Below are positions 7,225 to 54,234 of a stretch of 64,000 nt of DNA, in pieces. A model generated the notes under the pieces. The model saw only the letters and a list, made by a program, of their open reading frames with translations, did no database searches and had not been told where the DNA came from. The stretch is from contig JAVSIV010000022.1 in assembly GCA_033816765.1 (NCBI GenBank), positions 62,001-126,000 of the forward strand, written 5' to 3'. The DNA comes from Nothopassalora personata. Taxonomy: Eukaryota; Ascomycota; Dothideomycetes; Mycosphaerellales; Mycosphaerellaceae. Numbering within the stretch: the first letter of the stretch is position 1; each line of letters starts with the position of its first letter. Made by a program: the position numbers and the translations under genes.

Positions 7225-8106
7225 CTATTTTCTATTTAAATAACTATTAGCTCTGTAAAGCTGTCTCTTTTGGTGGTCAGTTAAATCTCATAATTTAATA
7301 GGAAGACCACGCTGCGCCATATCGGCTTTCATACTAGATTCTGTATAAACAATAGCGTCAATTCTAGCAGTATTTCCCGCAATAGCTGTTAAGTTAGCAC
7401 CCGGTTGAGTAGGTATAATTGTTCTATCTCTTACTTTTGAATCCCTCCAGTCTAATCCAGCCTTCAAATTCTTAATATGAACAGTTACTTCATTTCTTAA
7501 ACCAGCTAGATAAGGCTCCGCACCTTGTACACATGCATTACATCACCCACATGAGTTAATTATTGTAAGTTCTCCTACTGAAGCTGATATCAGGTCAAGG
7601 CCAAATACATATATAAATAAACCTGAAACCATTGAAAACAATAACCGTGTAATTAACATATTTGTGAATTTACTTCAAGTAAATTCTTTTTGGGATTGCG
7701 CTAACTGCGGTGTATTTAGTAAAGCAAACAAAACAGCTAAACTAGAAAAGAACAAATTTACAATGAAAATTATAAAAGTAAGTTCTAATTGAAATAAGGC
7801 AAAACTAGAAAAATTTCTAGATAAAATTAATACTAGTGCAAATGGTAATGTAGTTAAAAGGTAATTTTCTAGTAATTTACCTATAATCTTCTGAGAATAA
7901 TAATTAACACTAATAATGTGTGAAAATAAACGTCAGAAACCTATAATTAAAAACACTGTACCTGCGATAACGTGTATTCCATATAAACCTGTTCCAAAAT
8001 GAAAACATGGTACGTATACGCCAAGCGCTAAAGCTATACCTACACCTGCACCGATTAATCCTGTTGTGGCTAAACCTGTTCCAATAATTTTTGCTGCTTG
8101 TATCAT
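7225..8106 (-). CDS. Chimeric ORF: atp9 N-terminus + cox3 piece + membrane/Cys-motif domain
   Basis: An intact 293-residue frame under code 4. Residues 1-23 are Atp9 ([20 protein letters not shown]). Residues 30-65 match a Cox3 segment (CFHFGTGLYGIHVIAGTVFL, then IGFWRLFSHII). After that come about three more hydrophobic helices without a known parent, then CGWCNAC and a roughly 100-residue hydrophilic C-terminus. The atp9 leader is also copied (8107-8270), so it could be expressed from atp9 signals. The frame is long and free of stops while neighbouring atp6 pieces are broken, which suggests selection or recent origin. Function unknown; the design is like plant recombinant male-sterility ORFs. 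Confidence 0.75.
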
Positions 8107-8270
8107 TTAAGTTAGATATTTAAAGTTATAATTGTATTTTAAAGGAAACCCCCTTTACTATTTTAAATACTATTTTAAATACTATTTTAATTACTATTTT
8201 AATTACTATTTTAATTACTATAAAAAAAAAAGCTTTGTTTATTAAGTACTTATCGTATATATTTATTTTT
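8090..8270 (-). repeat. atp9 5' leader copy with 12-bp tandem repeats
   Basis: The leader upstream of atp9 (about 5998-6100) recurs at about 6843-6950 and here. This copy carries extra 12-bp units (actattttaaat/actattttaatt, about five) at 8158-8220. It lies between the chimeric ORF and the cob 3' end. Confidence 0.75.
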
Positions 8271-8299
8271 TTTTTGTTTTTTTGTTATTTTTATAGGCT

Positions 8300-50723: not shown

Positions 50724-52281
50724 ATGATGTTTAGAACTATGCTTATTAGAAAATTTGACTTTTCCCATTTTACTTATTTATCTTTTCCCACTAGAGCTAT
50801 ATCTAACTCTGCTACTGTTTTTAGTCCTATTGCTACTTCTTTAGGTGTTAAATCTTCTCAGATTTTTTTTTTTTAATCGATTACTGTTAGTTTCAATGAT
50901 CTTAATAAAAATTCAAATGCTATATTTAGATATTTATTATTTAATCTAAAACCTCGTATTCAATATAGTATGGTGATTAAATTAAATGATAGATATATAT
51001 CTGAGGTTATTTTTTATCCTTTGAACATATCACTTCATGAATTCCTTAATAAGATAGTTTTCGAGTCATATAAGGTATGTCATGAAGAAATTAATGCTAA
51101 ATTAGTAATTACATTAGAAGAGGTTATTAAAGTTGTTTATAAGCCTTTTTCAGGTGTTAGAGCTAGTGTAAGCAAGGGTTCTTATAAACGTGGAGTTGAA
51201 CGCAGAGAAAATCAACATAAAGATTTAGCATTTCCTTTAGTGCCTAAAAAGTCTCTCCAAGATATTTTTAAGTTAACTACTAGAAAATATGAAGGTCTGA
51301 AAAGAAGGGAATTTAATAGATCTCAACGTAGAAGTGGTAAAAGAGATTACTCTACTACTTCTGTTACAAATCCTTATCTTAATGGTAACATGTTTGACAG
51401 GATAGAAAAAAAAAAATTTAAAAGTACAAATTTTGAAGCTAGTAGTGAGGTACAGTTAGAATTAGAAAAATATCTGTTGGAGTTTAAATCAGAGGTTACT
51501 AGTACTGATACTACTTTAATAAGAGATGTAGATGCTAGATGGTTGTCGGGACCTGTTACGTCATTTATATCTAAAAAAAAAAGTCCCCTATGATTTCTGC
51601 TTACTTAGAAGCCTTACTTAAATCTAACAACAAAAATGATAAATTCAAAGTTACTATTTTGAATGTAGTCGGTAGTCAATTCATATTTGATAATTGTGTT
51701 TACTTTTTACTTAAATTACTAAGAGATGCTAAGACTGAAAACTTAGATTTATTAGGGGTTACATCTGTAGGTGTTAAAGTAGGTAAGATCATCCTTGATA
51801 AGTATTTAAGAATTAATAAAGGAGATGATATAAGTAACTTCAAGACTTGACATGATAATTACATTAGGGATATACCTGAATTAAAAGGTATATTAAACAA
51901 CGATGATTCTTTTTACTTAAAATTAGGTACTAAGGTAATGAAAATACTTATAAATTAATTAAACTTGAGGTTTTAAGAGTATCTAGAAGTGAGAGACATT
52001 CTATTTATGTAATCTGTGATACTGAACTTTTAAATATGGATTAAAAAAAAAAACAAGATGTTGTTTTAGTTTCACCTTTAAGGTTACCTATGATAGTACC
52101 TCCAGCTAAGTATTTGCATAGTGAAGGTGGTGGATATTTACTCAACAATACTAGTTATAGTATTTTTACACAAAAGAAACAATATAAGATAGAATCTAAA
52201 TTATCGGAAGATAACAAGATAATATCCTTAGTTAATAACCTGTCCGATATTCCCTTTAATAAAGAATTTCCTTTCTTCTGA
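50724..52281 (+). pseudogene. Linear-plasmid RNA polymerase (rpo), N-terminal part, decayed; right repeat copy
   Basis: Mirror of 1653-3210 with the same breaks: TAA after a T-run (about 50873), a shift at A10 (51572-51581), a shift at about 51950 and a TAA at an A-run (about 52041). One extra A at 51581 would join the 207- and 86-residue frames. Both arms carry exactly the same breaks. Confidence 0.75.
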
Positions 52282-52611
52282 ATTAGGTAGTAGTTTAGAG
52301 GCAAGCCCTAAACAGTCAAGTGAACTTAAAAACCTTTTTTTTTTTTTTCTTTCTATAATCAAAAGAAATATACAGCATTAGTAAGCCAAATTGTACACCA
52401 AGTAGTTGGCGGAGTTAGTGGGCCTATTTAATTATCTCTAATTTCATTATATATATACTTTTGAAAAAATGCGTTTAGTCCTTAAACATGTTTAGCATTT
52501 ATACCTTAAACAATTTAATCGATTAACAATATAACCTTTAAGTTAGTTACACAACCTTACAATTTATTTACAAATAAAAGGGTTATTAACTTAAAAATAT
52601 CTGATATTTCT

Positions 52612-54234
52612 ATGTGATGAGAACGTTGATTCTTGTCAAGTAATGCTAAAGATATAGGTACACTTTACCTTATCTTTGCCTTATTTTCAGGGCTATTAGG
52701 AACAGCTTTTTCTGTTATTATAAGACTTGAGTTATCTGGTCCTGGTGTTCAGTACATAGCTGATAACCAATTATATAACAGCATAATTACTGCACACGCA
52801 ATACTTATGATTTTTTTTATGGTTATGCCTGCTATGATAGGAGGATTTGGTAATTTCTTACTACCTTTATTAGTAGGAGGTCCAGATATGGCGTTTCCTA
52901 GACTAAATAACATTAGTTTCTGACTTTTACCTCCTAGTTTAGTATTATTCATATTTGCTAGTACAATAGAAAATGGTGCAGGTACAGGTTGAACTTTATA
53001 TCCACCATTATCAGGTATACAAAGTCACAGTGGACCTAGTGTAGATTTAGCAATATTTGCTCTTCATTTATCAGGGATAAGTAGTTTACTTGGAGCAGTA
53101 AACTTTATTACAACTATCTTAAATATGAGAAGTCCTGGTATTAGACTACACAAATTAGCCTTATTTGGTTGAGCTATTATAGTTACAGCAGTGTTGTTAT
53201 TATTATCATTACCTGTATTAGCTGGTGCAATAACAATGGTATTAACAGACAGAAATTTTAACACATCTTTCTTTGAAGTTCCATTTTCAATTCTTGCTTT
53301 AATTTTTGCTTTAATTATAACTGGAGCATTATGAATACTTATGGCCTTATACTTCTTAATGCCTAAGTTATTAGGTTTATTCTACAGTATAAATTCATTT
53401 TTTCACAGAATTATCTTTAATTGAGCTCGTAGAAAAATTAATTTTATTTTTAGTCTTTCTGATGAGTCTATGTTTACTAAGTATGGTTTTAGGTTCATTA
53501 AAGATATTATGTTTTCTACTACTGATTATATATCATATCTATTCATTTTTTTTATTATACTAACCCCTCTTTATACTGGGACTTGAGTATTCACGTATAT
53601 AGGTATTTTTTGTTTAATTCAAACTCCTTTGGCCCCTATTCTTATTCTTTGGTTTTTGATTTTTATAATGAGACATCGTTACTTGGTAAGTATATTATTA
53701 TTAATACTGTCTAGCTACCTTTACACGAACGTAGCTCTGGAGCTGTCTAGCTACCTTTACATGGACGGAGGTGTGGATCCTTCTAACCCTAATCCTCAGG
53801 GAGGTGGTGGTAGCAATGGTCCTAATTTGCCTGGTCCTGGTCGTGGTCCTGATGGGGGTAGCAATCATCCTTTAGTTCCTAACTCAGTAGGGAGACGACC
53901 AGATAATCACTCAGAGAACCTCTTCACGGAACATGGTGTAACTAACGGTTACGACAGAAATATTAGAGATGGTGTAATTGCAAATGGCTACAATCCCAAT
54001 ATATCACAGCAGCCCTATGCCAGTAATTTGATGTCGAAGGTAGATAGTTTACAAAAGGGTCCTTCTGCTGTAACAGGTTTACAAATTCCCCAGGAGCTTA
54101 ACGATCGTGATAAAGAATATATAGATATCTTACATAGATATTATAGAGACCATGTTACTATGCAAGGGTTTAATAGTAACAGGCATTATCCATTGGCGGC
54201 TGGAGTTAAAAAATTTATAAGGAATTTACCTTAA
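52612..54234 (+). CDS. Chimeric ORF: cox1 N-terminal 223 residues + membrane/Gly-Pro/orphan C-terminal domain
   Basis: A single open frame of 540 residues under code 4. Residues 1-223 are Cox1 through FFEV, encoded in the repeat arm. Then the frame goes straight into non-Cox1 sequence: [20 protein letters not shown], a charged part ([20 protein letters not shown]), more helices ([20 protein letters not shown]), a Gly/Pro linker ([20 protein letters not shown]) and a hydrophilic domain ending FIRNLP. That last part is homologous to the ORF at 60971-61702 ([14 protein letters not shown] against DDRAIRDEVIKNGY; SQQPYA in both; ending RNLP/RRLP). It has the full cox1 leader, so it can be expressed like cox1. 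It cannot be a working oxidase (heme and CuB ligands after FFEV missing). Confidence 0.85.

Follow-up and report, generated by a model that had tools for sequence, protein, structure and literature searches.

Mitochondrial core-gene starts joined to putative membrane-anchored accessory open reading frames in the fungus Nothopassalora personata

The mitochondrial DNA of Nothopassalora personata raises the question of whether new genes can arise in a fungal mitochondrion when accessory membrane proteins come to lie behind the starts of core genes. The stretch analysed here, referred to as the window, comprises 64,000 nucleotides (bases 62001-126000) of a 136,179-bp contig (JAVSIV010000022.1, here C17) in a genome assembly of 54.5 Mb and 40 contigs. 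This contig is self-overlapping and represents a mitochondrial circle with a unit of 95,903 bp, of which the window covers two thirds; features beyond the window are given in circle coordinates. The original prediction held that five loci in the window join the 5' piece of a core gene to foreign sequence in one frame or nearly so. Three open in-frame chimeras are present, at cox1, nad2 and atp9::cox3, and a fourth, at nad5, lies just beyond the window. The reading that we favour, with a probability of roughly 60%, is that the chimeras are protein-coding genes for membrane-anchored accessory mitochondrial proteins (of the kind known as ncORF/uORF from Agaricomycetes), perhaps plasmid-derived, that sit behind captured core-gene 5' ends. 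The open reading frames (ORFs) concerned are as follows.

52612-54234, plus strand: cox1 chimera, 540 aa, consisting of 223 aa of COX1 and 317 foreign aa
21500-22435, minus strand: nad2 chimera, 311 aa, with the nad2 start, extra helices and a soluble tail
7225-8106, minus strand: atp9::cox3 chimera, 293 aa, with atp9 aa 1-32, cox3 aa 196-240, helices and a tail
61737-62109 (homology 61737-62103), minus strand: copy of the nad1 5' end, frame-broken, directly before the orphan ORF
60971-61702, minus strand: nad1-linked orphan ORF, with helices, a Gly-rich linker and a tail of the cox1-chimera family
8300-9337, minus strand: ORF of the last cob exon with an in-frame extension made up of a hydrophobic stretch and a Cys/His-rich tail

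The predicted coordinates of the cox1, nad2 and atp9::cox3 chimeras were confirmed. Residues 1-223 of the cox1 chimera are identical to the true cox1 exon 1, and its foreign part adds extra membrane helices, a Gly/Pro-rich linker and a soluble tail. The start of the nad2 chimera matches positions 9-61 of the nad2 ORF, and the atp9::cox3 chimera matches the Pfam COX3 family with an E value of 5e-7. Beyond the window a duplicated nad4L is followed by the nad5-start chimera (circle 78584-79797). A truncated nad1 copy just before an orphan had also been proposed, and is indeed found: the copy is frame-broken and the ATG of the orphan (61702) lies nine bases past a stop in the same frame. In each case a displaced core-gene 5' piece is directly upstream of, or joined to, the accessory ORF. 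The layout of gene start, membrane helices and soluble tail is real. It is seen more than once, reading frames are preserved, and live copies have relics next to them. The other two proposed loci fared less well. At cox2 the leader is followed by a broken coding part and then a short open stretch; this copy is a relic and no live chimera. The cob gene does have its normal end extended in frame, with the Pfam match of the last-exon ORF stopping at residue 179 of 345, but it is of a different class, being an extension of the only copy found. The extension itself amounts to about 142 codons (8303-8728) if its start is placed, as we assume, where cob proteins normally end.

Are these frames coding? 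None of the foreign parts contains a stop, against a mean of 14-23 in composition-matched first-order resampling (6.1 for the cob extension), and the dead paralogue of the atp9 chimera nearby is full of stops. Synonymous codon use was scored against the core genes with the protein held fixed and gave z values of 5.1 for cox1, 5.3 for the nad1 orphan, 4.8 for atp9, 3.4 for nad2, 3.7 for nad5 and 3.7 for the cob extension. For the tails by themselves the values were 4.6 (cox1), 3.6 (nad1 orphan), 4.3 (atp9), 1.7 (nad2) and 3.4 (nad5). The wrong strand of nad4, used as a control, scored -3.0, and two relic stretches scored 2.1 and 0.9. The chimeras therefore look coding, by their stop-free frames and core-like synonymous codons, and they also carry transmembrane segments, as predicted from hydropathy only.

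A further line of evidence comes from the comparison of two of the tails. The foreign part of the cox1 chimera and the nad1-linked orphan are 40.5% identical in amino acid sequence over 220 codons, and one protein family is therefore found behind two different captured starts. Identities at codon positions 1, 2 and 3 are 0.518, 0.659 and 0.377. Nearly randomised third positions combined with conserved second positions are the mark of old purifying selection on this family. These findings bear on the idea that the chimeras are neutral recombination debris, in which duplicated gene ends have been joined to random open sequence and do not function. The many clear relics (dead atp9, cox2, nad2 and cox1 copies) are what such a process would leave, but long stop-free frames with core-like synonymous codons, and a tail family that is conserved while its third positions are near random, are not. 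Debris is accordingly a decidedly improbable account of the chimeras as a whole, and for the cox1/nad1 family it is already disfavoured.

The chimeras are additional to the originals, since separate core genes exist on the circle. Copies of cox2, cox3, atp6, atp9, nad2, nad3, nad4, nad4L and nad6 are present, as are exon pieces of cox1, cob, nad1 and nad5; the exception is cob, of which the sole copy found carries the extension. The use of code 4, the tRNA set, the LAGLIDADG/GIY-YIG-like intron ORFs and the genes present mark it as a fungal mitogenome. The circle is composed of two inverted repeat (IR) copies and two single-copy parts, one about 44.6 kb and the other about 43.3 kb long. The features needed to place the chimeras against their originals are these.

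654-4688: IR copy A, 4,035 bp, identical to copy B, holding the true cox1 start, plasmid-like ORFs, trnF and trnA
49246-53280: IR copy B, which stops after cox1 codon 223, where the foreign part of the cox1 chimera starts
615-1322, minus strand: true cox1 exon 1 (236 aa matched), with more cox1 exon pieces on the rest of the circle
5800-6009, minus strand: true atp9
59269-60726, minus strand: true nad1 exon 1 with an intron ORF

The true cox1 runs out of the IR across one edge; across the opposite edge the frame continues past codon 223 into foreign residues. The cox1 chimera is a product of the IR edge. An interpretation of this chimera as an intron ORF read in frame was rejected, because elsewhere the true cox1 extends beyond the IR edge, and no exon of cox1 was detected downstream of the chimera's tail. 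It might also be asked whether the junctions were created by collapse of repeats during assembly. The contig is over-assembled (136,179 bp for a unit of 95,903 bp): its bases 1-19380 are the reverse complement of bases 62651-82030 with one mismatch, and it therefore runs across both orientations of one single-copy part. The main nad2 frame (circle 69161-69120, beyond the window) has no ATG in frame close to its start, in which two displaced copies differ, and this is possibly a homopolymer slip of the assembly. Against an artefact, the cox1 junction occurs twice and identically in the contig, beside both orientations of the region (within this one assembly), and the junctions lie within open, codon-biased frames. 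We consider an artefact extremely improbable. A second mitochondrial contig (C18, 47,744 bp) contains the IR edge with a different flank in place of the cox1 chimera, as expected for the other flip-flop isomer. A 1-kb inverted repeat, diverged (66%) and containing ORF relics, was also observed at 27118-28088 and 54408-55381, the latter just after the cox1 chimera.

Relics and other displaced pieces of core genes are numerous in the window.

6212-6860, minus strand: dead paralogue of the atp9 chimera, beginning with the atp9 leader and ATG, with many stops
6099-6218, minus strand: another atp6 3' piece, following the dead paralogue
6979-7206, minus strand: atp6 3' piece, after the atp9::cox3 chimera
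21152-21481, minus strand: nad2 3' piece (nad2 ORF positions 396-505), after the nad2 chimera
38938-39042, plus strand: second copy of the nad2 5' end, dead, next to a trnV copy
25868-25960, minus strand: weak match (E 0.002) to a third displaced piece of the nad2 5' end
43804-44362, plus strand: relic of the nad2-chimera tail, then an internal nad2 piece
38574-38812, plus strand: displaced cox1 leader and first 47 codons, a relic
4687-4926, minus strand: further copy of the cox1 leader, up to and including the start codon (96%)
18459-19198, minus strand: dead cox2 copy with a leader of 92.6% identity and a frame-broken coding part (from 19103 down)
56118-56198, minus strand: nad3 3' piece, downstream of the ORF at 56534-56941

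These pieces are biased towards gene starts. Displaced pieces were counted from tblastn matches of core genes against the circle, with the mutual nad2/nad4/nad5 paralogue matches and an atp9 start at 6860 seen by blastn only omitted. Eleven of the 17 extend to the first codons, where 3.3 would be expected under uniform placement (p about 2e-5), and nine of 15 do so when nad4L and the IR copies are left out (p about 1e-4); the cox2 and nad2 pieces are included as reaching the start although their tblastn matches begin 5-11 residues in, and since mutual copies are counted separately the p values are optimistic. The conservation of leader and coding parts was compared in eight usable pairs of nine tried (the atp9b pair aligned elsewhere, and the nad1 pair stood outside the set). 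In the atp9a, nad2a, nad5c, nad4L and cox2 copies the leader equals or exceeds the coding part in conservation, and in atp9c, nad2b and cox1b it falls below it. Put another way, this holds for all three live chimeras measured (atp9, nad5 and nad2) and for one of four dead copies (cox2).

Fungal mitochondrial translation generally requires leader-specific activators. In the mechanism that we propose, recombination between repeats would bring the 5' end of a core gene ahead of an accessory membrane ORF, the captured piece comprising the upstream leader, the start codon and the first tens to hundreds of codons. The leader would supply transcription and gene-specific initiation of translation, and the N-terminal piece would give co-translational insertion into the membrane, while the added helices, linker and tail would be the gene's own product. 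Duplication and recombination would go on generating copies, at cox1 at the IR edge, with two flank arrangements in the assembly, and many of these would decay.

A different origin for the 5' copies is suggested by Tremella fuciformis, in which N-terminal duplications have been described, some of them present in cDNA (PMC7315562; here and below, published cases are taken from the relevant sections of the papers cited). Mobile elements or introns that brought with them a copy of the host gene's N-terminal part may have inserted beside that gene, in which case the 5' copies would be scars and the ORFs cargo with no need of a captured leader. The order of 5' copy, insert and complete gene reported there is seen at nad1, nad4L-nad5 and atp9 (PMC7315562). 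It is not seen at cox1, nad2 and cox2, where the copies are away from their originals and not in tandem; the three live fusions of the window are in frame across the junction, and a homing-endonuclease domain was not found by Pfam in these chimeras or in the nad5 chimera. In Tremella the inserted units are treated as introns or inserts that exchange fragments of host genes, whereas those here are membrane ORFs, several of them away from the original gene (PMC7315562). By-products of insertion are a possible but unlikely explanation of the whole set.

Several further points weigh against captured leaders serving accessory genes. The 5' bias could stem from an insertion mechanism such as the Tremella model and not from selection on leaders. 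The leader comparison is small (eight pairs), and in the case of nad5 the leader shares sequence with the nad4L copy, which it overlaps. In codon use the nad2 tail by itself is weak, and one relic stretch scores higher than it does. Extensions of cob and nad6 in Phlebia radiata are deemed putatively non-translated by the authors who described them (PMC4019555). A search of a protein collection with the nad1 orphan and the nad2 chimera returned only themselves; the same collection yielded eight relatives for another membrane ORF of the circle, which shows that it does contain such DNA. Finally, eight other nad4-bearing fragments (78.6 kb in total), chosen from 36 loci by identity and gene content and probably fungal contaminants of bacterial assemblies, contain no core-gene piece twice within a fragment, a test that would miss originals lying outside the fragment. 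This suggests that the chimera habit is patchy and not general.

Other searches gave little on the foreign parts. In Pfam searches of the chimeras and orphans only the core-gene parts matched above cut-off and the foreign parts had no match; among other ORFs, homing-endonuclease and RNA polymerase domains were above cut-off. Matches below cut-off were not believed, either for the orphan (E 0.05 and worse) or for the nad5 chimera (E 4e-5 to 2e-4), the latter falling in hydrophobic and low-complexity stretches. A PDB sequence search returned six matches for the orphan (E 0.35-0.89), taken as chance, and none for the membrane-ORF alignment A1. Scans of IMG/VR found nothing for the orphan, the ORF at circle 86711, cox2, or the foreign parts of atp9 and nad2. 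In the organism's own genome the orphan, nad2 and atp9 tails have no copies outside the two mitochondrial contigs. Short copies of mitochondrial DNA were noted on a large and probably nuclear contig, at C9:1746707-1746937 and C9:2773467-2773543.

The circle does contain related ORFs with a comparable plan. One at 87826-88653 matches the N-terminal part (38% over 207 aa) and one at 86711-87721 the rest (57%) of P0003, a single database protein of 573 aa with a hydrophobic N-terminus, an Asn/Pro-rich linker and a domain with a D...E-x-K pattern. By eye this domain appears PD-(D/E)XK-like; at the level of families, the sole hint comes from a sister ORF, with a weak HSDR_N match below cut-off (E 0.13). 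Membrane-linker-domain ORFs in which such a pattern is seen by eye are found at circle 86711-88653 and 74315-75809, beyond the window, and at 56534-56941 within it, with eight database relatives (P0002-P0009). These ORFs lie inside the cox1 and nad5 gene regions and near nad1 and nad3 pieces. The membrane-linker-domain arrangement is thus a general plan of this circle and occurs in the absence of captured starts as well. A gene for a T7-type RNA polymerase is also present at circle 69235-70665, beyond the window (PF00940, E 9e-54), and is probably derived from a mitochondrial plasmid; an ORF of the IR is related to an ORF beside this gene. Together these point to plasmid DNA in the circle.

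Fragments of other mitogenomes provide some parallels. A 43.9-kb IMG/VR contig (G001) is a fragment of a related mitogenome with genes of fungal mitochondrial type, its nad4 being 79% identical in the best segment. In it a nad4 leader (92% over 106 nt) stands ahead of a membrane-like ORF. Another ORF comprises a low-complexity tail, a nad4 end, a cox2 start and a further tail. The same contig has an rps3/VAR1-like end with hydrophobic stretches, a Thr/Gly linker and a tail, the full gene matching PF05316. In a further fragment, G003, a 3' duplicate of cox1 runs on into a novel tail, and a membrane ORF can be seen by eye to overlap the end of cob. G002 contains a cox2 3' duplicate, and G004, tested in the same way, shows none. 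Searches of G001-G004 with the foreign part of cox1 gave no match. A 'QPY' motif shared by the orphan tail and a tail in G001 was seen by eye and set aside, as phmmer gave no support. Loci L031-L037 and L064 and fragments G001-G004 are mitochondrial and probably fungal, being contaminants in bacterial assemblies or 'virus' records in IMG/VR.

How far is such a family new? The original prediction considered it new in a fungus, which is too strong given precedents in Heterobasidion (PMC10234125), Phlebia (PMC4019555) and Tremella (PMC7315562). With those of Glomus/Allomyces and H. irregulare, these cases make the kind already known. In Heterobasidion the 5' ends of nad2, cox3 and atp8 are placed ahead of cox2 and of intergenic ORFs; almost all of the 20 intergenic ORFs have membrane regions, and relics are common; the authors proposed that the 5' pieces maintain ORF expression (PMC10234125). 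Duplicated 5' ends before membrane ORFs are a shared feature, but the Heterobasidion pieces are upstream of the ORFs and those here are fused in frame in the cox1, nad2, atp9 and nad5 chimeras (PMC10234125). ORF319 of P. radiata, at an IR edge, carries the nad6 start (36/37 nt), and cob and nad6 are C-terminally extended (PMC4019555). There too an IR copies a gene start onto an unrelated ORF and cob has a C-terminal extension, but 37 nt of nad6 are shared as opposed to 223 codons of cox1, and a tail family behind other starts, present here, is not described in the relevant parts of that report (PMC4019555). C-terminal gene hybrids arising from mobile ORFs (mORFs) are known from Allomyces and Glomus, with mRNA expression in Glomus, and resemble the present case in that a single unit combines pieces of core genes with a foreign ORF (PMC3630166). 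They duplicate 3' ends together with an endonuclease ORF, whereas the chimeras here have mainly 5' ends with no endonuclease domain found by Pfam (PMC3630166), and the 3' pieces present belong partly to other genes, unlike those of an mORF. For H. irregulare, a partial nad2 has been reported, as have membrane ncORFs with links to plasmids (PMC4201751). The published fungal cases are similar but less pronounced. In open-licence PMC literature, represented mostly by titles and the starts of abstracts, a fungal family of in-frame fusions to core-gene starts was not found described; what appears new here is the in-frame fusion to several gene starts and the conserved tail family behind two of them.

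A resemblance to plant cytoplasmic male sterility (CMS) loci had also been drawn. Plant CMS ORFs such as petunia Pcf, which is made up of atp9, cox2 and urfs, likewise fuse a core-gene piece to an unknown membrane ORF, although they have a known phenotype and the chimeras here are known from sequence alone (PMC11312923). By analogy, the chimeras might be selfish genes that poison or bias mitochondrial function and are held in check by nuclear suppressors. The triple fusion of atp9, cox3 and unknown sequence recalls Pcf, and live and dead copies are adjacent. On the other hand, a search for PPR proteins with PF13041 only gave no sign of expansion, with nine matches at five nuclear loci in 54.5 Mb (exon by exon, a lower bound); restorers, which in plants often form an expanded PPR clade, need not be PPR proteins. 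We regard this account as very unlikely. A broader version would have modular selfish genes of fungal mitochondria, in which cassettes of captured leader and start (sometimes with a 3' piece) drive exchangeable membrane-linker-domain products that purifying selection maintains and that disturb respiration or inheritance, an independent counterpart of the plant loci; this is a speculative and rather improbable proposal.

If accessory genes behind captured core-gene starts are what the circle carries, the case has wider relevance. Agaricomycete mitogenomes contain many unexplained membrane ORFs, and this genome offers a clear, testable case of such ORFs borrowing core-gene expression signals. 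Were the chimeras translated, they would show how new fungal mitochondrial genes originate and would provide a non-plant comparison for CMS.

Some minor features of the window may be added. A tandem array of the 8-mer GGTGCAAG lies at 63677-63812, upstream of cox2. Further orphan membrane ORFs are found at 31181-32557 (458 aa), beside the small rRNA, and at 45249-45908 (219 aa), about 10 bases after nad6.

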